Origin: Tropicimonas marinistellae
GTDB taxonomy: Bacteria > Pseudomonadota > Alphaproteobacteria > Rhodobacterales > Rhodobacteraceae
Reading direction: 5' to 3'
Assembly: GCF_001509585.1 (NCBI RefSeq)
Contig: NZ_LNCI01000009.1
Coordinates: 180,565-244,564 of the forward strand
DNA: 64,000 bases
The translations under genes and the position numbers were made by a program. Every line of letters begins with the position of its first letter. Position 1 is the stretch's first letter. Below, one piece after another: positions 3,011 through 38,700 of the stretch. The notes under the pieces were generated by a model that was given only the letters and a program-made list of their open reading frames with translations, searched no databases and was not told the DNA's origin.

Positions 3011-3634
3011 ATGGACGTTATCCTTCTGGAACGTGTGGCCAAGCTTGGCCAGATGGGCGAAGTCGTTTCCGTCAAGGACGGCTATGCCCGCAACTTCCTG
3101 CTGCCCCAGGGCAAGGCGCTGCGCGCCTCCGAGGCCAACAAGGCCCGGTTCGAGGCCGAGAAGGCCCAGCTCGAAGCCCGCAACCTCGAGACGAAGGCCG
3201 AAGCCGAGAAGCTCGCCGCCAGCCTCGACGGTCAGCAGTTCATCGTGATTCGCTCCGCCTCCGACACCGGTGCGCTCTACGGCTCCGTCACCACGCGTGA
3301 CGCCGCCGACGCGGCCACCGAAGGCGGGTTCTCCGTCGACAAGAAACAAGTGGCGCTGGCCAAGCCCATCAAGGAACTCGGCCTGCACGACGTACACGTG
3401 AACCTCCACCCCGAAGTGGTCGTCACCATCGTCATGAACGTCGCCCGTTCGGAAGAGGAAGCCGAGCTTCAGGCGTCCGGCAAGTCGATCCAGGAACTCG
3501 CCCAGGAAGAGGAAGAGGCCGCCGAATTCGAGATCGCCGAACTCTTCGACGACATCGGGTCGGCCGCCGCCGACGACGAAGACCTCAAGGGCGCGACCGC
3601 CGAAGAGGCGCCGCAGGACCCGATCGAGGACTGA
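3011..3634 (+). CDS. rplI: 50S ribosomal protein L9
   Basis: A 207-residue L9. The N-terminal rRNA-binding domain is clear ([19 protein letters not shown], then [16 protein letters not shown]), followed by the long connecting helix and a C-terminal domain to about residue 150. The protein is longer than the roughly 150 residues of E. coli L9 because of an acidic tail (about 155-207) rich in Glu and Asp, as I expect for Rhodobacterales. L9 sits at the base of the L1 stalk. It closes the rpsF operon and is followed by a strong terminator. Confidence 0.97.
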
Positions 3635-3694
3635 TCGGCCCAAGCGCCATCGCGGGCGGTGCTCATCCGCCGCCCGACACGGTATCAAAACAAC

Positions 3695-3730
3695 AAGGCG
3701 CGTCGCGATTGCGGCGCGCCTTTCGTTTTT
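3695..3730 (+). terminator. Rho-independent terminator of rpsF-rpsR-rplI, probably bidirectional
   Basis: AAGGCGCGTCGC (3695-3706) pairs with GCGGCGCGCCTT (3711-3722) with one G-T pair and a four-base loop, followed by TTTCGTTTTT. On the minus strand the same stem is followed by GTTGTTTTG, so it can also end the converging preA transcript. Confidence 0.85.
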
Positions 3731-3771
3731 CCCGGTGGCGGTGGTGGCGGTCCACGCCCCCGCCGCGCCCG

Positions 3772-5079
3772 CTACTGTGCGGCGATCACCTTGGCGGGGT
3801 TGTTCGGGTGCGTCGTCCAGTCGCCCGGCTCCGCGGGCACGTTCCGCCCGGTGCGGTCATCCATCTCGCCGGCTGCAAGCTTGCGCATGCTGATGCACCC
3901 CTCGACCGGGCAGACGTTGACGCAGAGGTTGCAGGCGACGCATTCGCTATCGTCCACCTCGAAAACCCGGCCCTCCTTCATCAGGATCGCCTGGTGCGAC
4001 GTGTCCTCGCAGGCCGCGTAGCAGCGCCCGCACTTGATGCAGGCCTCCTGGTCGATCTCGGCCTTGGTGATGTAGTTCAGGTTCAGGTACTGCCAGTCGG
4101 TGACGTTCGGCACGGCCTTGCCAACAACCTCGCTGACGGAGCTGTACCCCTTCTCGTCCATCCACGACGACAGCCCCGAGATCATCTCCCCGACGATCCG
4201 GAACCCGTAGGTCATCACGGCGGTGCAGACCTGCACGTTGCCAGCCCCCAGCGCCATGAACTCCGCCGCATCGCGCCAGGTCGTCACCCCGCCGATGCCG
4301 GAAATCGGGATACCCGCCGTCTCCGGGTTGCGCGCGATCTCCGCCACCATGTTGAGCGCGATCGGCTTCACCGCCGGGCCGCAATATCCGCCGTGCGTCC
4401 CCTTGCCGTCGATCATCGGCTCCGGGCTCATCGCGTCGAGATCGACCGATGTGATGGAATTGATCGTGTTGATCAGCGAGACCGCATCCGCGCCGCCGCG
4501 CTTTGCCGCCTCCGCCGGGTAGACGATGTTCGTGATGTTGGGTGTCAGCTTCACGATCACCGGCATCCGGGTGTTCTGCTTGCACCAGCGCGTCACCATC
4601 TCGATGTATTCCGGTACCTGCCCCACGGCCGAGCCCATGCCGCGCTCCGCCATGCCATGCGGACAGCCGAAGTTCAGTTCCACCCCGTCGGCGCCGGTTT
4701 CCTCGACCACCGGCAGGATCGCCTTCCAGGCATCCTCCTCGCAGGGCACCATCAGCGACACCACCACCGCGCGGTCCGGATAGTCGCGCTTCACGGATTT
4801 GATCTCCTGCAGGTTCTGCTGCAGCGGCCGGTCCGTGATCAGCTCGATGTTGTTGAGCCCGATCAACCGACGGTCCGCGCCCCAGATCGCGCCGTACCGC
4901 GGTCCGTTGACGTTCACCACCGGCGGCCCTTCGGAGCCCAGCGTCTTCCACACGACGCCGCCCCAGCCCGCCTCGAAGGCGCGGCGGACATTGTATTCCT
5001 TGTCCGTCGGCGGCGCGGAGGCGAGCCAGAACGGGTTGGGCGATTTGATCCCGACGAATTCGGATGCAAGACTAGCCAT
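3772..5079 (-). CDS. preA: NAD-dependent dihydropyrimidine dehydrogenase, subunit PreA
   Basis: A 435-residue protein with a dihydroorotate-dehydrogenase-like FMN barrel (about 5-320) and a C-terminal ferredoxin-type region. The active-site loop NFGCPHG carries the catalytic Cys. Two 4Fe-4S motifs follow: CIKCGRCYAAC and CVACNLCVNVCP. With PreT it reduces uracil and thymine to dihydropyrimidines (or the reverse), the first step of reductive pyrimidine breakdown in the cytoplasm. preT ends 14 bp upstream on the same strand, so the pair is an operon. Dihydropyrimidinase and beta-ureidopropionase genes, which would complete the route, are not in this window. Confidence 0.92.
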   Translation of the reverse strand: MASLASEFVGIKSPNPFWLASAPPTDKEYNVRRAFEAGWGGVVWKTLGSEGPPVVNVNGPRYGAIWGADRRLIGLNNIELITDRPLQQNLQEIKSVKRDYPDRAVVVSLMVPCEEDAWKAILPVVEETGADGVELNFGCPHGMAERGMGSAVGQVPEYIEMVTRWCKQNTRMPVIVKLTPNITNIVYPAEAAKRGGADAVSLINTINSITSVDLDAMSPEPMIDGKGTHGGYCGPAVKPIALNMVAEIARNPETAGIPISGIGGVTTWRDAAEFMALGAGNVQVCTAVMTYGFRIVGEMISGLSSWMDEKGYSSVSEVVGKAVPNVTDWQYLNLNYITKAEIDQEACIKCGRCYAACEDTSHQAILMKEGRVFEVDDSECVACNLCVNVCPVEGCISMRKLAAGEMDDRTGRNVPAEPGDWTTHPNNPAKVIAAQ

Positions 5080-30870: not shown

Positions 30871-32163
30871 TCAGCCCGCCTGTCCCGCCTCTTCCTGAAC
30901 CGCCTCCGCATCGGCTTCCTGCGCGGCCTCGATGAACATCTCCTGCGCGACCTCCACCGCGACGGGCGATGCCGTTGGCAGTACCGGAGCATAACTCACA
31001 GTTTCGTCCACCGGAACAGCCTCGCTCTGTGTCATCCGCCAGAATGCGTAAGCGGCCAGAGCCGCACATAGGATGCTCAGGAACAGAAAGAAACCCTGTG
31101 GCCCCGCAATCGACATCATCCCGCCAGTGATCAGCGGGCCGGCAACCGCCCCGACCCCGTTGACGAAGATCAGGCCGCCCGAGGCGCCGGCCATCTCGTC
31201 GTACTCCAGATGGTCGTTCACATAGGCCAGCAGCAGCGCGTAGAGCGGGCTCGATGTGCCGCCGATGAAAAACGCCGCCACCAGAAGGGTCACGTATTTC
31301 TGCCCCATGACCATCGCGAGCAACGACGCGACAGCTCCAACGGCCGCCAGCGCGAGTATGAGCAACCTGCGGTCCATCCGGTCGGAGAGCCATCCGATGG
31401 GATATTGCATCACCATGCCGCCGATATAAATCGTTGCAATGAAAGCGGAAATCTGTGCGACGGCAAGGCCGGCCTGCGTCGCGAAAACCGACGCCATCCC
31501 GTAGAGCGCCGAAAACACGCCGCCCAGCAGGAAGAGGCCCACGCAGCCAAGTTGCGATGTCTTCCAGAGTTGCCGCAGGCTCATCGGCTTGGCCGTCTCG
31601 AATGCGGGCGTCGGCTGCACCGCCAGCAGGATCGGCGCGAAGGAGACCGACACCAGAACGGACGGGATGATGAAGAGCACGAAGCCCGAGGGGTCGCCCA
31701 GCAGCAGCAATCCCTGCGCCGAGACCATACCCGCCATCTGCACGATGACGTAGAGCGAGAGCGCCTGTCCACGGCGGTCATTCGTCACCGCATCGTTCAG
31801 CCAGCTTTCGGCGGTCACGTAAACGGCGGACAGGCAGAATCCCATCAGCACACGGCCAATCGTCCAGGCCAGGGGCTGCGCCAGCAGCGGGTAGAGAATG
31901 AGGATCGCGGACACCAGCGAGCCGAGCGCGGCGAAGACCCGGATGTGCCCGACCCGCCGGATCAGCTCCGGCGCCATGCGCGAGCCCCCGAGAAAACCCG
32001 CGAAATACGCGGACATGACAATGGACATCTCGAAGGTCGAGAAGCCCTCGATACTGCCGCGGATACCCAGCAGCGTGCCCTGCACGCCATTGCCGACCAT
32101 CAACAGGAGCATTCCGAACAAAAGGGCCCAGGAGGCCGAGATCACTTGGAACATGAGACGCAT
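30871..32163 (-). CDS. MFS transporter, YcaD-like
   Basis: A 430-residue major facilitator with about 12 hydrophobic helices. The repeated family features include SMRLSEGRAT-type loops replaced here by GSRMAPELIRRVGHIRVFAALGSL after helix 2 and YPIGWLSDRMDRRLLIL after helix 8, both MFS loop motifs. It has a Glu/Ala-rich cytosolic tail after helix 12 (about 385-430). Substrate unknown; similar YcaD proteins are uncharacterised. It follows the TAXI-type gene by 81 bp. Confidence 0.85.
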   Translation of the reverse strand: MRLMFQVISASWALLFGMLLLMVGNGVQGTLLGIRGSIEGFSTFEMSIVMSAYFAGFLGGSRMAPELIRRVGHIRVFAALGSLVSAILILYPLLAQPLAWTIGRVLMGFCLSAVYVTAESWLNDAVTNDRRGQALSLYVIVQMAGMVSAQGLLLLGDPSGFVLFIIPSVLVSVSFAPILLAVQPTPAFETAKPMSLRQLWKTSQLGCVGLFLLGGVFSALYGMASVFATQAGLAVAQISAFIATIYIGGMVMQYPIGWLSDRMDRRLLILALAAVGAVASLLAMVMGQKYVTLLVAAFFIGGTSSPLYALLLAYVNDHLEYDEMAGASGGLIFVNGVGAVAGPLITGGMMSIAGPQGFFLFLSILCAALAAYAFWRMTQSEAVPVDETVSYAPVLPTASPVAVEVAQEMFIEAAQEADAEAVQEEAGQAG

Positions 32164-32244
32164 TCCCTCTTTCGCGCGGCCGCTCTAGACCAGTCTTCGC
32201 GACAGCGCCATGTCCGGTTGCGACATTCGGAATCCGTGAACGAC

Positions 32245-33525
32245 CTATGGGTCGGATGCGGAGAGATGGTCGCGGCGCTCGGCTAGCTGGCGCCGCACCA
32301 GATCGACATGCAGCCGCGCATGATAAGCGCCGACGCGGAACGCCGGCGGCAGGCGCATCGCCGCCAACCGATGGTCGAGCGCATCCAGCCGCCCGTCGAG
32401 CGAGCGCAGATCATCGAGGGTTTCGGCCTGCGCGAGATCGGTCTCGATTGCGCCGATGGCCCGGTAGTGCTGCCAGACCCTGCGTCGCATCGTCCAACGG
32501 TAGACCGCCGGAAGAGACCGGATCAGCGGAACGACGACGAAGAGAAGCGGCAGCAGAATGAGCATCACCCTCCGTACCTGGGCGGCGATCCAGTACGGCA
32601 GCCAGTCGTGAAAGAAGCTTTGACCTTCGGTCAGCAACTTCTGCGCCGCCGCGTCGACGGGCATGTCGGCTCCCTCCGGCGTCGGGTATTGGCCCTGACG
32701 CGCGAAAACGCTCTGCTCGCCATGGATCTCGCGGGCGGCAAGCACCATCCGGTCGACAACCGCCGGATGAAGGTCCGTCGTGCCCGCGAGTCGTGCCAGC
32801 AGGACAACCGTGGAGAGCGGCACCTCCGGCACCACGGGGTCGAGTGAAACCGCGCCGGCCGGGGCGGTCAGCACCCGGCTGTGCGGCATTCTCTGGGCGA
32901 TTGCGTCGGCATAGGACAGCACCAGCAGGTCGGTCGTCGGCGATTGAATGAGCGGCACCAGATAGGGCGCGTGGATGGGCGCCACGAACAACGCGACATC
33001 TATTTCGCCGGCCAGAAGCGCCTCCGCCGCCGCCTGCCCCCCGAGGTCCGACAACCGGTTGACCGGTTCGCCGATTTCCAGCGTCGTCAACAGCCGGTCG
33101 AGCGCCAGCTGCGTCCCCGATCCCGGGCCGCCCCGCGCGACGACGAGCCCCCGCCAGAGTGCCGGATTGGCCGGGATCGGCCGGTCCGCGCGGGCAAACG
33201 CCAGGATCGGCTCCACGAAGACCGTGCCGAGCGCCACCACGCCGGTGTCCCGCTGCGGTTCGATCCCGCCCTGCACGAGGCCGACGTCGACGGCCCGGTC
33301 GGCAAGGAGCGCGACATTTTCCACCGACCCTGCGGTCTCAACGATATCGACGATGATGCCGTCGCGGGCGAGGATCTCGCGGTAACGCTCGGCAATCTCC
33401 CAATACCCGCCGTCGCGCTCGCCTGCGGCGAAGGACAGTCGGTCCGGAGGCGGAAGATCCCGCAGCAGGTAGAGCGAGTACAGGACGGCCGCGACGATGG
33501 CGGTCAGCACGAGGATCAATCGCAT
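32245..33525 (-). CDS. TAXI-type TRAP solute-binding protein with C-terminal membrane segment
   Basis: A 426-residue protein. The TAXI-type ligand domain covers about residues 30-320 after an N-terminal anchor (MRLILVLTAIVAAVLYSLYL). Key parts are FAAGERDGGYWEIAERYREIL, VENVALLADRAVDVGLVQGG and VVARGGPGSGTQLALDRLL. Unlike a free binding protein, it has a second hydrophobic segment (about 340-365: VRRVMLILLPLLFVVVPLI), then a helical cytosolic tail. GGAGAGG precedes the ATG at 33525; the upstream frame to 33741 lacks support. No TRAP permease is adjacent, so it may act as a sensor or anchor rather than in uptake. Confidence 0.85.
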   Translation of the reverse strand: MRLILVLTAIVAAVLYSLYLLRDLPPPDRLSFAAGERDGGYWEIAERYREILARDGIIVDIVETAGSVENVALLADRAVDVGLVQGGIEPQRDTGVVALGTVFVEPILAFARADRPIPANPALWRGLVVARGGPGSGTQLALDRLLTTLEIGEPVNRLSDLGGQAAAEALLAGEIDVALFVAPIHAPYLVPLIQSPTTDLLVLSYADAIAQRMPHSRVLTAPAGAVSLDPVVPEVPLSTVVLLARLAGTTDLHPAVVDRMVLAAREIHGEQSVFARQGQYPTPEGADMPVDAAAQKLLTEGQSFFHDWLPYWIAAQVRRVMLILLPLLFVVVPLIRSLPAVYRWTMRRRVWQHYRAIGAIETDLAQAETLDDLRSLDGRLDALDHRLAAMRLPPAFRVGAYHARLHVDLVRRQLAERRDHLSASDP

Positions 33526-33651
33526 CGGCCTCTCCGGGGCAGCGGGGAAAGGGAGTGCGGAAACCGCAGGAATCCCCCGACAGTGCCACAGCCGGCCCGA
33601 TCGCGGAAGAATCCGTTTGACGGCTTGGCGGAATTGGCGCAGGAGAGGCGT

Positions 33652-33699
33652 ATGACACGCCCTGCCGCCACCCGATTTTATTGGTCCCGTTCCACATAG
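33652..33699 (+). CDS. Leader peptide (15 aa) upstream of GNAT gene
   Basis: A short ORF with an AGGAGAGG ribosome-binding site six bases before the ATG. It encodes MTRPAATRFYWSRST, with consecutive CGA (Arg), TTT (Phe), TAT (Tyr) and TGG (Trp) codons at 33673-33684, then TAG. The coding segment contains RNA region 1 (GCCGC, 33664-33668) of the attenuator that follows. A ribosome paused at the Phe-Tyr-Trp codons would cover region 1. No function beyond regulation is expected. The start is supported by the ideal Shine-Dalgarno sequence and by the attenuator geometry, not by homology. Confidence 0.75.
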   Translation: MTRPAATRFYWSRST

Positions 33700-33701
33700 G
33701 A

Positions 33702-33754
33702 GCGGCCGCAGGGGGCATACCCTTACGCACGAGGCCGCCACGAGCGGCCTTTTT
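33702..33754 (+). promoter_or_regulatory. Transcription attenuator (antiterminator plus terminator)
   Basis: Region 2 (GCGGCC, 33702-33707) can pair with region 1 in the leader ORF or with region 3 (AGGCCGC, 33732-33738). Region 3 can instead pair with region 4 (GCGGCCT, 33744-33750), a 7-bp terminator stem with loop CACGA followed by TTTT. The 2:3 and 3:4 stems are mutually exclusive. The GNAT start is 45 bp beyond the terminator. Confidence 0.75.
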
Positions 33755-33798
33755 CATCTCTCGCGTCTCGTGGTGGCAAACATCCCGGAGACAGAAAG

Positions 33799-34311
33799 AT
33801 GGATGCAGAAGAAAAACCAGCCGAGTTGAAAGCGGTGTCGATCCGGCGCGCGGTGCGCGGCGACATCCCATGTCTTGTGGACATGGTATCGGCCCTGGCC
33901 GCGTATCACGGTGACCTTGCGACGGTCTCGCCGCAATCGCTGGAACGGGACATCTTCGGCCCCGGCGCCTGCGCCCGCGCGCTGCTGGCCGAACGCGACG
34001 GCGCGGCGGTCGGATACGTGGCGCTGGCCTGTTACCCGGCCCTCCACTTCGGCCGCAGGGTAATGGAGATGCACCATCTCTACGTGGCGCCCGCGCAGCG
34101 CGGCCGCGGCGTGGGGCGCCACCTCGTTGCCGCCGCCGTCGAGGAAGCCCGGCGCGAGAATTGCGGCCGGATCACCGTCAGCACCGATCCCGACAATGCG
34201 CGGGCGCAGGAGATTTACGGCTCCATGGGGTTCGCGCCGCAATCGCCGGGCGGCCCGCGTTTCCGGCTGGAATTGCCGGAGACGGGCGCGCTGCCCGCCG
34301 GCTGGGTCTAG
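33799..34311 (+). CDS. GNAT N-acetyltransferase controlled by attenuator
   Basis: A 170-residue GNAT. The N-terminal helix IRRAVRGDIPCLVDMVSALAAYHGD resembles spermidine/diamine acetyltransferases; the acetyl-CoA block is MHHLYVAPAQRGRGVGRHLVAAAVEEARRENCGRITVSTDPDN, and the end reads YGSMGFAPQSPGGPRFRLELPET. GGAGACAG precedes the ATG at 33799. It lies directly behind the leader-peptide attenuator (33652-33754), so its expression probably responds to ribosome stalling. A polyamine, antibiotic or amino-acid substrate is possible; the sequence does not decide. Confidence 0.85.
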   Translation: MDAEEKPAELKAVSIRRAVRGDIPCLVDMVSALAAYHGDLATVSPQSLERDIFGPGACARALLAERDGAAVGYVALACYPALHFGRRVMEMHHLYVAPAQRGRGVGRHLVAAAVEEARRENCGRITVSTDPDNARAQEIYGSMGFAPQSPGGPRFRLELPETGALPAGWV

Positions 34312-34656
34312 CGCACGTCGCGCAGAAGCGGGCACCGGTTTTGCGCGCCTCGTAGGTGCGCGTTTGAACGGTCAGAATTTGTCGCGCGCATGCAAGTGGA
34401 CGCGGCAGACTTTGGCCAGCGACGCCACCGGATCGAACGACGCGCACCACGCCCGCGCACGCCCCCCGGGGCCAGTGGTGCGCGGCATGTCACGCTCTGT
34501 CCTTGGCGCCCTTGAACGACTTCCCGGAGGGCGCCAAGGGATTAAGAATTCGTGAATCCGCGCCGGTAACCCATTGATTTAACTAGGTCTGGAAGATGTC
34601 CCATCGTGAGACACCAAGGCGCGAGCGAGCGGACGGAGCGCCGGGCCGGCCCACCC
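34312..34656. other. 345-base intergenic region between GNAT gene and queA
   Basis: Both flanking genes converge here. The notable element is a perfect 11-bp inverted repeat, CCTTGGCGCCC (34501-34511) with GGGCGCCAAGG (34529-34539), loop of 17, followed by GATTAAG rather than a T tract. No gene was supported. It may be a terminator or the end of an unrecognised small RNA. Confidence 0.4.
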
Positions 34657-35703
34657 TCACGGCAGCAGCAGCGAGGCATCTCCATAGGAGAAGAAGCGGT
34701 ACCGCTCCGCGATGGCATGGTCGTAGACCTCCATCATGCGGCCCCGCCCCATCAACGCCGAGACCAGCATCATCAGCGTCGACTTCGGCAGGTGAAAGTT
34801 CGTCATCAGCCCGTCCGTGACCCGAAACCGGTAGCCCGGCCGGATGAAGATATCGGTCTCCCCGCGCCAGGGCGCGATACCACCGTCACCGGCCGCGGAT
34901 TCGATCAGCCGGCAAGCGGTGGTGCCCACCGGCAGGATGCGCCCCCCGGCCGCCCGCGTGGCGTTTATCTCGTCGGCCGCCGTTTCGGTCACCTCGCCCC
35001 ATTCGGCGTGCATCTTGTGGTGGCTGACGTCGTCGACCTTGACTGGGAGGAAGGTGCCCGCGCCCACATGCAGCGTCACTTCCGAGATCGCGACCCCCAT
35101 CGCGACGATCCGCTCCAGCAGGGCGGCATCGAAATGCAGGCTCGCCGTGGGCGCCGCCACCGCGCCGGAGTGGCGCGCGAAAACGGTCTGGTAATCGACC
35201 CGGTCGCGGTCGTCGGCTTGTCGTCGGGCGGCGATATAGGGCGGCAACGGCATCGCGCCCGCGCCGTCGAGCGCCCGGTCGAAATCCTCGCCCTCGCACG
35301 AGAACGCCAGCGTGAGCTGGCCGTCGGCGCGCCCCAGAACACGGGCGGAGAAGCCCGGCGCGAACTGGATCTCCTCGCCGTCGCGCACCTTCTTGGCGGG
35401 TTTGGCAAGGGCCGCCCAGGTGCCGTCTCCGCGCGGATCGAGCAGCGTGACCTCGATCCGCGCTTCCGTGGGGCCTTCGGCACCGGCACGGCGGCGCAGT
35501 CCGGTCAGCCGAGCCGGAATGACTCGGGTATTGTTCAGCACCAGCCGGTCGCCCGGACGCAGGAAATCCGGCAGGTCGAAAACGTGGGAATCGGTCAGGC
35601 TACCCGGCCGAGCGACGAGCAGCCGCGCCGCGGTTCGCGGGCTGGCAGGCCGGGTCGCTATGAGCGCCTCGGGCAGGTCGAAATCGAAATCCGAGAGCCG
35701 CAT
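34657..35703 (-). CDS. queA: S-adenosylmethionine:tRNA ribosyltransferase-isomerase
   Basis: A 348-residue QueA, which transfers the ribosyl part of SAM to 7-aminomethyl-7-deazaguanine in tRNA, giving epoxyqueuosine. It starts [19 protein letters not shown] and carries [34 protein letters not shown] and [19 protein letters not shown], all family blocks. It follows the large AsmA-like gene by two bases, so the two are cotranscribed. tgt, usually adjacent, is not seen in the window. Confidence 0.95.
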
Positions 35704-35705
35704 CC

Positions 35706-38700
35706 TCAGCCCTCGCTCCCCGCCTGCCCATCGGACCGCGCCCTTGGTTGCGGAGGCGCCGCGCGGAATATCTCCCGAAACATGCCCGGCGTGAGCATCG
35801 AGAGCGGGTTCACATCCACCGACGGATCGGATGCAGGCCCGCGCATCCGGTAGGTCACGCCAAACAGGCCCTCGCCCTTCCGGGTGAAGATGGATCCAAT
35901 GGAATTGACCATGTAGATCGGGGAGAACACGCCCTGCATGTCCAGTCTGCCGGTGCCCATATCGAAGATGCCTTCCATGGTGATGCCGAGCGATGGCCCG
36001 ACGCCGGAGGAGCGTGTGACCTGCAGGTAGCGCGGCGTCAAGCGGAAGGCGGCCTCGACATCGCTGAAAACAATGCCGGAGCCGTTCAATTCATCGAGCA
36101 GCCCAACCACGGAAATCGCGTTGGCCAGCGACACGAGCCCGGTCACGCCGCGGACACGCAGGTTCTCGACTTTCAGCTGGCCGTCATATTCGCCGTCTTC
36201 GGCACGCGGCTGAAGGGTCAGTGTCATGCTGCCGCCAGCCGCCTGCTCCAGGATTCCGGCCGACCGGAACACCGCGCCCGCGTCTTGCGACGTCACGCGG
36301 ATCGCCGACTTTCCATGTTGCCCCTTCGACAAGGCCACGGAAACCGGCGCCTGGCCGTTGAGATTGCCCGCGAACGTGCCGGATACGCCGCTGCCGGGCG
36401 GCACATCGCCTCGAAACGGCGCGATGAACAGATCGTCGTCAATCTGCAGCCTGTCGAGCGCGAGGGTAACGGGCGGGTCCGCGGCACTGCCGCCGGAACC
36501 GGAGGCGCCAGACCGCCTGCGCAGGTCGACTCGCCCGCCGACAATGGAAATCACCGGTGCATTCCCGGTGCCACGACCGATGAGCGTCACTGGTGCATCG
36601 AGCCATTCGCCGAGTTGTACACGGTCGAAACGGGCCGCGCCGAGCCCGCCGTCGGGGGACATGTCGATCCGGCCTTCCGCGGCGAGACCCGCGGCAGCAA
36701 ACCTGAGCGCCGTGACCGCAGGTGTGTCGCCGAGATAGCCGGAAACCTGCAGTTCGCCCGTGCCGTCGACGGCCTTCGACCAGCCGAGCGACGGAATCGA
36801 CAACCCCACGCCTTCCAGCGCCGATGTAAGCGCAAAGACCGGCGGCGCGCCTTTCGGAAGGTCGAGCCGGAAATTTGCCGGGCCCGCGCCGGTCACGCTG
36901 CCCTCCGGCAGCCCGATGCCGAAGGTCGAGACAAAGGTCTCTCCGATGTCGATCGCGCCTTCCACCGAGGGCTGATGATCGGCGGCCGCAGCTCCGAGCG
37001 GCAGGCTGAAAGCGGCTTCGAGCGGCACCTCGTCGAGCGTGCCCGCGCCGGAAATCCTGAGCCCGTCGGGCCGGGCCTGCAGGTCGAGCATTTCGGCCCC
37101 CAGCCGCCGCCCGGGCACGACCTCTTCCGACACGACGTTGGTCAGCGCACCGGCGACGTCAAACTCGACCTCGTCCGCCGAGATACGCCGCCGCATGGGA
37201 AAGGCGATGCGCCCGTCCAATCGGGCGTGCCCGTCGGCCAGGTTCACCGGTTTTCCGGCCCGCTGAAGGAAGCGGAACGGCGGCTGATCAAGCAACGACA
37301 GGGCGGCTGTCGTGCTGGACGTGGAGTGCCACAGGATTTCTCCGATGCGCGGCGCCGTCGCCATGTCGTCAATGGTGAATACCGATCCGGCAACGTCGAT
37401 CTCTCCGCCCTCTGGCGGCTGAATGCGGCCCGCATCGAGCGAAAGCGAGAATGTGTCCCGGCCGACATACCCGTAGCCGGCAGCATCTTGGATTGGCGGC
37501 AGGCTTTGCATCGGACGCAATTTCGCGTCGCGAAACTCGAACGTTAGCGCCACGTCGGGACGTTGCCCCTGATCGAACCGCACGCCGGCGCTCGCGTCGA
37601 ACACCTGCCCGTCCAGCAGGTTCCGTTCGATCCAGTCGCGCGTGCGCGGGACGAGTGGCAGCGGCCAGAGCGCCATCATCGGCGCAACCCCGATCTCGTC
37701 GAGCCCCATATCAAGGGCCACGTGCCACCCTTGCCCGTCGGCCGTGATCCGGCCGGACGCATGCAGTCTTGAGTCCGCTGCCGTTTCGCCCCCGTCCGGA
37801 TCGGTCGTTGTCAGGACGAGTTGACCAATCCGGGCGACGAACGGGTCGATCTCAACTTTCAGGTCGAGGATCCCCTCGTCGAAGGTCGCCGGGCCCGGCA
37901 AGAGACCGGGGGGATCGAGCCGAAGTTCGGAGAAGCGAAACTGCCCGACCAGCGCTGTCGGCCAGCCGCTGTCCAGCCCTTCCAGATAGGCGTGTCCGCT
38001 GGCCGATACCGTCCCGTCGGGCGCGTGGACCTGGAGTTGCTCGAAACTCAGCCGGGCCTCCTCCGGACGGTACCCGAAATAGGCGCGCGCGCCGTCGAAA
38101 TGGATCGGGCGGGCGGCCCGCTCCGGCTGGAACGCCCCCGGGCCTATCTCCAGCGTGCCGTTCAGGGTTTCCATCTCGCCCGTCTCGCTCAACCCGGCGA
38201 TGATCGCGCCGGACACGCGCGCATCGAGCGGGCGCAGCCAGGCGACCGCGGGATTCTGTGCCGCGATGTCGGCGGCGGCCACGCCGTCGACAAGGGCGGA
38301 GAACTCGGCCCGCGACCCCGTTTTGCCGAGCGACAGGCGCAGGGCGACCTTTGCCGCGGTTTCTGGCTCCGCCGCGGAACCCGCGCCATTCGCCGTGTCG
38401 GCTTCTGCGGCCGCCGGCGCCTCTTCCGCTGCGGCGGACGGCAGCTTCAGATCGACCGAGGCGGACAGGGCGTCCGCATCCTGCGCAATCACCAGCCGGC
38501 CATCCTCCACCCGCCACAGGCGCCCGGCACGCCGGTCGTCGAAGTGAACGTCCAGACCGGTCACTTCGATCCGATGGATCGGCTCCATGCCCGGCAGGGC
38601 AAAAACCCGCTGGACCGCGGCAATCGCTTCCTCGACCGATCCGAGCTTGGCCGGTGCCACGTCGCGACCGAAGCCGAGATCCAGCGTCCCGTCGGTCTTG

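Follow-up and report, generated by a model that had tools for sequence, protein, structure and literature searches.

hisL is a classical ribosome-mediated attenuator, and the classical attenuators, to our knowledge, guard amino-acid synthesis or charging. Control of the S. coelicolor synthetase TrpRS1 is reportedly by attenuation, and that of B. subtilis TyrZ is said to be by a T-box. The classical group also includes trpL, pheL and the pheST leader (PMC11802643), and rnTrpL/trpL of Sinorhizobium meliloti is described as a leaderless leader of 14 codons that starts at AUG (PMC7298713, PMC10117765). TrpRS1 is described as an indolmycin-resistant auxiliary synthetase and TyrZ likewise as an auxiliary one, and published spare synthetases are described as a protection against inhibitors or incorrect amino acids (PMC9437257). 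The mechanism of attenuation is already known. In the titles and abstract openings of the literature on leaders, GNATs, Tyr and rhizobial attenuation, of which few subscription papers were covered, no description was found of a Tyr-centred leader family, of GNAT outputs or of a fifth pairing region. We describe such a leader in the window, the 64,000-nucleotide stretch of Tropicimonas marinistellae DNA analysed here, where comparison of relatives and folding indicate that positions 33617-33777 are very probably a tyrosine attenuator, predicted to be leaderless and likely inducing a GNAT N-acetyltransferase gene when charged tRNA-Tyr is short.

Layout of the leader and its predicted promoter

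The coordinates originally predicted for regions 1-4, the TAG, the TTTT and the GNAT start all proved correct on direct reading of the window sequence (Table 1). An intrinsic terminator, a hairpin plus U tract (33732-33754), lies between the leader and the GNAT, and the RNA from 33640 to 33760 folds better than 200 of 200 dinucleotide shuffles (z -3.77). In window positions 31000-36000, comparison with Rfam at E values up to 1 showed no T-box; its two matches were both sub-threshold and irrelevant to the leader.

Table 1 Features of the predicted attenuator locus in the window
Feature	Positions	Strand	Basis
Predicted promoter, -35 TTGACG	33617..33622	+	Sequence; near-fixed distance to ATG in relatives
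Expected -10 position, CAGGAG; the "SD" AGGAGAGG begins inside it	33640..33645	+	Spacing from -35; relatives
Leader ORF, 15 codons, translation MTRPAATRFYWSRST and stop	33652..33699	+	Comparable ORFs in relatives
Region 1, includes GCCGC 33664-33668	33661..33669	+	Fold of ribosome-free leader: pairs with region 2 and 3' flank
Tyr codon TAT, sixth codon before stop, predicted stall codon	33679..33681	+	Position conserved in relatives
Leader stop TAG	33697-33699	+	Direct reading
Region 2 GCGGCC, two nt after stop, antiterminator 5' arm	33702..33707	+	2:3 covariation; partner-swap test
Region 3 AGGCCGC, antiterminator 3' arm and terminator 5' arm	33732..33738	+	Sequence; covariation
Part of region 3 and the loop, GCCGCCACGAG, complement of region 5	33734..33744	+	Sequence; swap test; alignments
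Region 4 GCGGCCT (33744-33750) and U tract, terminator 3' arm	33744..33754	+	Sequence; fold; covariation
Region 5 CTCGTGGTGGC, 3' of terminator, 5' of GNAT start	33767..33777	+	Swap test; alignments
GNAT N-acetyltransferase, 170 aa, ATG 33799	33799..34311	+	Pfam PF00583; fold match

The 15-codon ORF of the original prediction stands, but for the letters before it a Shine-Dalgarno role is not confirmed. The expected -10 reads CATnnn in 6 of 10 relatives' loci compared. When the best-placed ATG is chosen, 63 of the 67 loci have TTGAC 35-37 nt upstream of a candidate leader ATG, the distance from its first base being 35, 36 and 37 nt in 25, 35 and 3 of the 67; with a fixed choice of ATG the count is 51/67 (last ATG only) or 57/67 (first ATG only), and the background is 51 of 3350 random positions over a 13-nt range. 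SD-like motifs occur upstream of the leader in 3 of 67 loci, the window being one of the three. Since such motifs are rare, the TTGAC spacing is near-fixed and AGGAGAGG overlaps the expected -10, the leader mRNA is probably leaderless, like that of Sinorhizobium trpL, and we infer that transcription starts at the leader ATG.

Genes behind the leader

A protein search of 60 genomes found close GNAT orthologues in 8/8 other genomes of the same genus and weaker ones in the family. A 15-codon ORF followed by a CCGCC-type terminator stands at all eight same-genus loci and at L011, from another genus (L009 has 15 codons when counted from the second ATG); neither lies upstream of the GNAT at L010 or L012. 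Of 394 genomes in a family-wide search, 45 had the GNAT at E 1e-25 or better, and a collection scan, which partly overlaps the earlier loci, gave 78 GNAT loci, including ones from Tropicimonas, Ruegeria, Sulfitobacter, Rhizobium and Agrobacterium.

Distinct GNAT loci that scored 90 bits or more with the HMM and had 330 nt of upstream sequence (n = 121) were examined with a strict detector. This demanded an ATG-initiated ORF, 8-22 codons long, in which two F/Y/W stood side by side among the last nine residues, and a T-tailed hairpin that followed the ORF stop by 22-45 nt. It passed 67 of the 121, mostly in Rhodobacterales and Rhizobiales, compared with 0/726 shuffles, 0/121 reverse strands and 0/1304 other windows, and among these relatives both the conserved peptide codons and the compensatory stem changes expected of the originally proposed attenuator were found. 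A looser detector, with the hairpin anywhere within 95 nt, passed 70/121 loci versus 6/726, 2/121 and 7/1304 in the same controls. Strict passes came to 9/12 in the relatives search, 48/72 in the collection scan and 10/37 in samples drawn evenly from the family and class; 54 of the 121 loci failed, 27 of the 37 in the even samples, and because only 10/37 of the latter passed we consider the leader common in this GNAT family yet by no means universal. Reading of 26 failing or near loci by eye gave seven single-Tyr ORFs judged to be leaders, 15 loci without a candidate ORF (among them L141, with Phe-Tyr-Trp early in a longer ORF) and four with unconvincing ORFs.

The arrangement extends to Sinorhizobium meliloti strain Ak57, in which the leader MIKNAPISSVYFWLFR is followed by a terminator 25 nt past its stop and then by the GNAT, and to plasmid records, where three of four GNATs examined (out of six) have Tyr leaders, two sharing one peptide and one without a detected terminator. 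At L118/L283 the leader of a GNAT orthologue, MINALKIARY, ends directly after the Tyr codon, unlike its relatives. The exact pattern CGMTTTTAYTGGNCNCG, sought in 198 family genomes, gave seven matches in addition to the window's own, which were judged chance because each either falls within a gene or lacks terminator and gene context.

The window protein belongs to the GNAT superfamily (PF00583, Acetyltransf_1, 71 bits against a cut-off of 20.7). Among solved structures the closest to it in sequence are 2fe7 (P. aeruginosa, probable N-acetyltransferase), 12jc (thialysine acetyltransferase) and 2bei (SSAT2), and the nearest folds to its model (pLDDT 88) are 2fe7 (Foldseek E 1.6e-11) and 2bei. 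It does not belong to a named resistance or polyamine GNAT family by NCBIfam score, as all 22 NCBIfam matches fell below cut-off. No neighbour gene common to Rhodobacterales and Rhizobiales loci was seen in 77 loci (40 largest clusters), and for this reason the GNAT is taken as the leader's target. At one locus, L052, Pfam identifies a DJ-1/PfpI gene 3' of the GNAT (3469-4056) and a MerR-type regulator upstream of it (1624-2034); ORFs like these two occur at roughly 20 further Rhizobiales loci (cluster sizes 20 and 22). In the window, a divergent gene on the minus strand (32248-33525) resembles a TRAP transporter TAXI-type solute-binding subunit (Pfam NMT1_3 above cut-off, NCBIfam TRAP_TAXI below), and queA for queuosine synthesis lies at 34657-35703, also minus (TIGR00113 above cut-off); queuosine modifies tRNA-Tyr.

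The acetyltransferase is not an isolated odd target: as far as sequence matches can tell, the leader family is common to GNATs, to second-copy tyrS genes in two genomes and to some plasmid tyrS genes. Covariance model R1 gave ten strong matches in 40 genomes, all of them GNAT leaders, and weak ones with E above 0.006, among which one of nine inspected (L188) is a trpS leader, MENTKTIAMTWWLAS, with Trp-Trp. Model R2, built from GNAT leaders only, found the GNAT leader in each of 12 Rhizobiales genomes plus one strong second match (L208, E 5e-13), MIKTVLIAAIYYATSP, before a tyrosyl-tRNA synthetase gene. Model R3 (32 rows, one being the L208 tyrS leader) matched 15 places in 14 of 289 genomes across the class at E 1e-5 or better. 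These were the window; the GNAT orthologue with the leader MINALKIARY; an intact tyrS (L306, E 2.3e-15) with a leader ending AVYFARLP; a trpS (L307), matched strongly, with the leader MVNRPHLPAFIWWRSF ending FIWWRSF and thus holding Trp-Trp; four GNATs from a distant branch, whose leaders end in WYFTSLP, WYFSATS, WYFTPLT and WYFTSPK; a 92-residue S4-domain protein (L309) with the leader MENTKIHINAYFTSSK ending AYFTSSK; four matches rejected as leaders on inspection; and two partial ones (L286, L316). In 295 family genomes the nine best R3 matches are GNAT leaders; at E 0.01, 215 of the 295 match, largely partially and over the terminator half, so that loose matches mean little. In 43 genomes from the order of G414, the genome of L306, R3 found only G414 itself. 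The L309 protein (1182-1457, minus) is a free-standing S4 protein (Pfam S4 30.3 bits, cut-off 22.8), with a TyrRS C-terminal domain score of 23.3 bits, below the cut-off of 27. Other weak model matches (L176-L179, L189-L191, L193, L209, L211, L212, L219, L224, L285, L287, L292, L293, L296, L297, L299, L303, L312, L313, L315 and L317) were judged by eye to be terminators or gene ends.

Both leader-bearing tyrS genes (L208, L306) exceed the TIGR00234 cut-off, and the trpS genes of L188 and L307 exceed that of TIGR00233. G414 and G688 (L208/L274; also the holder of L058) have two tyrS each, and their leader-bearing copies form one clade (98/98; tree of N-terminal parts, 13 rows), against which stands the plain identity of the N-terminal piece of the G688 copy, 67% to the G414 housekeeping TyrRS and 63% to L306. 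This second tyrS of G688 carries an in-frame TAA under its Tyr leader; its G414 counterpart is intact. Among 49 tyrS loci, that of the window genome included, a short Tyr ORF was present in five (L239 being read in unsure orientation), and a Tyr ORF plus a G+C-rich terminator only at the second copy of G688, L274. Eight plasmid tyrS of 79 records were examined, and three of these have Tyr leaders, MTTRTHHSSRYYPLLP, MSKNAIATSSYYYGPLPRR and MIERSFILNAYYPLPS, one of them without a detected terminator. In the same examination of plasmid loci, no terminator was detected at L334 and L326.

Signal codon, alternative pairings and rival readings

Tyr occurs within the last nine residues of all 58 distinct leader peptides, Phe in 51 and Trp in 36, and the universality of Tyr arose although the detector weighted F, Y and W alike. 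In 47 of 57 peptides the first Tyr is the sixth codon before the stop; in 7 it is the fifth and in 3 the seventh (three rows dropped; the rows are related by descent, and p-values are descriptive only). Leaders use TAT and TAC at 63:30 versus 66:140 in the GNAT genes, and TTT and TTC at 46:10 versus 63:174. The aromatic runs include FYW, YFW, WYF, YY, YF and others, and the rest of the peptide is variable; the window peptide has Phe-Tyr-Trp consecutively. The original prediction of a stall on Arg(CGA)-Phe-Tyr-Trp is thereby narrowed: the Arg(CGA) codon is not conserved in relatives' peptides and drops out of the signal, and on the peptide comparison Tyr is the conserved signal codon, not Phe-Tyr-Trp as a set. 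The Phe and Trp codons beside it probably add, in the window lineage, sensitivity to shortage of the three aromatic amino acids. An alternative interpretation is that the leader senses a general aromatic shortage (Phe, Tyr and Trp), for example a shikimate block, which the GNAT would answer. The window's own run and the frequency of Phe and Trp in the peptides agree with this, but we consider it rather unlikely because Tyr is the sole aromatic residue that all 58 peptides share, Tyr-Tyr is the longest aromatic run in 11 of 57, and the leader family also stands on second tyrS genes.

The mutually alternative pairings 1:2, 2:3 and 3:4, as originally proposed for a ribosome-mediated attenuator, are upheld by folds and by covariation of 2:3 and 3:4. 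Among 32 diverse leaders (alignment A6) the covariation scores of 3:4 and 2:3 were each reached by 0/500 shuffles, while the pairs changed on both sides were ordinary compared with shuffles (51/500 for 3:4, 435/500 for 2:3); in a Rhizobiales set (A5), the 3:4 score was reached by 0/500 shuffles and the 2:3 score by 22/500. When partners were swapped among 30 distinct hairpin cores, the own 2:3 partner was matched in 3/5000 trials, and the gap from stop to region 2 is one to six nt in 30/30 cores. When a ribosome is placed at the window's Tyr codon, the RNA that stays uncovered folds into 2:3 if region 4 is absent (-19.4 kcal/mol); with region 4 added to this stalled state, 3:4 outcompetes 2:3 at equilibrium (-24.6 kcal/mol), and the switch must therefore depend on the order in which the regions are transcribed. 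With the ribosome at the stop instead, the uncovered RNA folds into the 3:4 terminator, and the ribosome-free leader forms 1:2 plus the terminator. To judge from these predicted structures, the folding pattern is the classical attenuator design.

A ribosome waiting for Tyr-tRNA at the TAT codon would cover region 1, to about 33691, and leave region 2 free, so that 2:3 would pair before region 4 is made and RNA polymerase would read on into the GNAT. A ribosome that reached the stop would instead cover region 2, and the 3:4 terminator would form; with no ribosome, 1:2 would form and transcription would terminate.

A further complementarity joins the terminator 5' arm and loop to region 5, which sits before the GNAT ribosome site; we know of no other attenuator with a pairing partner downstream of its terminator. 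Terminator loops vary by lineage and region 5 tends to follow them (swap test over 30 hairpin cores, 0/5000; core by core, 9 of 30 beat 95% of swaps). In a Rhizobiales alignment (17 distinct rows) 153 of 153 region 5 cells are paired and compensatory changes occur, with G-C, A-U and U-A at one position; in the Tropicimonas-centred alignment A3 the pairing is not above shuffles (165/500), and it is absent from the window MFE. Weighing these comparisons, we regard the pairing as real across the family, and it may refold the read-through mRNA. A part in the termination decision was rejected, since region 5 is synthesised only after the terminator. Region 5 might instead provide a second, translational layer, in which 3:5, formed in the read-through mRNA, would govern how accessible the GNAT ribosome site is. 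The way in which complementarity follows the loop across lineages would suit such a layer, but it is an unlikely one: in the window, 21 nt separate the end of region 5 from the GNAT ATG, the GGAG there is not part of region 5, and the A3 and MFE results count against this layer as well.

Two other readings were considered. The terminator could be constitutive and the small leaderless mRNA could act in trans, in the manner of rnTrpL/peTrpL, with little control in cis; the predicted leaderless geometry does resemble rnTrpL, for which trans roles are described (PMC7298713, PMC10117765), but conservation of the 2:3 pairing and of the Tyr-to-stop geometry is what control in cis needs, and the peptide sequence is poorly conserved, which makes this reading improbable. 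Least credible is an arrest peptide of the erm/cat/TnaC type, in which nascent chain and small molecule together stall the ribosome, because, for all the aromatic and Arg residues near its end and the antibiotic acetylases among GNATs (a sub-threshold similarity), the peptide varies freely outside the aromatic positions, no conserved arrest peptide of the erm/cat type was seen among the leaders, and the preference for TAT over the synonymous TAC points to codon decoding. Of the two signals originally offered, a drug or a shortage of aromatic aminoacyl-tRNA, the shortage fits; a drug may lie behind it, but a drug-arrest peptide is unlikely.

Proposed function and known systems

That GNATs and second TyrRS genes share a sensor says that the common input of their leaders would be poor tRNA-Tyr charging. 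A spare TyrRS answers poor tRNA-Tyr charging directly. The GNAT could do so by N-acetylating either a TyrRS inhibitor or a toxic analogue of tyrosine, the same insult that a spare TyrRS would meet; by analogy with the published spare synthetases, our hypothesis is that Tyr charging is blocked by an amine-bearing agent, which the GNAT would render harmless. More broadly, and tentatively, the leader family may belong to a dispersed, inducible alphaproteobacterial defence against natural tyrosyl-charging poisons, with a leaderless Tyr-codon attenuator as sensor and, as output, either an amine-acetylating GNAT or a spare, separately evolved TyrRS. If so, the sensor would be a sequence tag for finding both the poison and the enzymes that disarm it. 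The Tyr leader ties an uncharacterised enzyme family, in two GNAT branches, and second-copy TyrRS to charged tRNA-Tyr; this link narrows the search for the GNAT substrate and predicts that tyrosine charging is the point of attack of some natural agent, both being testable in laboratory Sinorhizobium.

TrpRS1 and TyrZ, as described, resemble the present family in that a spare synthetase stands under its own control and is linked to tolerance of an inhibitor or of D-Tyr; here, by contrast, the output is mostly a GNAT, and the leader-bearing tyrS copies are known from sequence. The AroR leader of Corynebacterium glutamicum (Phe-Tyr-Phe) is likewise an attenuator that reads Phe and Tyr codons, but it is described as actinobacterial and as controlling a biosynthetic target, DAHP synthase (PMC11802643). 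uORFC-8-2, the cysS leader of Rhodobacterales, shares the order, ribosome-mediated control, tandem signal codons and a synthetase gene as target, and differs, in its published description, in its Cys codons and in serving cysS only (PMC8632094). S. meliloti trpL, from the same bacterial class, has the leaderless start that is predicted here and shares the attenuator placed before the gene, but its target is trpE and it is described as a tryptophan attenuator. With the classical attenuators the locus has in common a leader ORF with signal codons, regions 1-4 and a mutually exclusive antiterminator and terminator; unlike them, it has a leader predicted to be leaderless and centred on Tyr, a GNAT or a second tyrS as its target, and the extra region 5.
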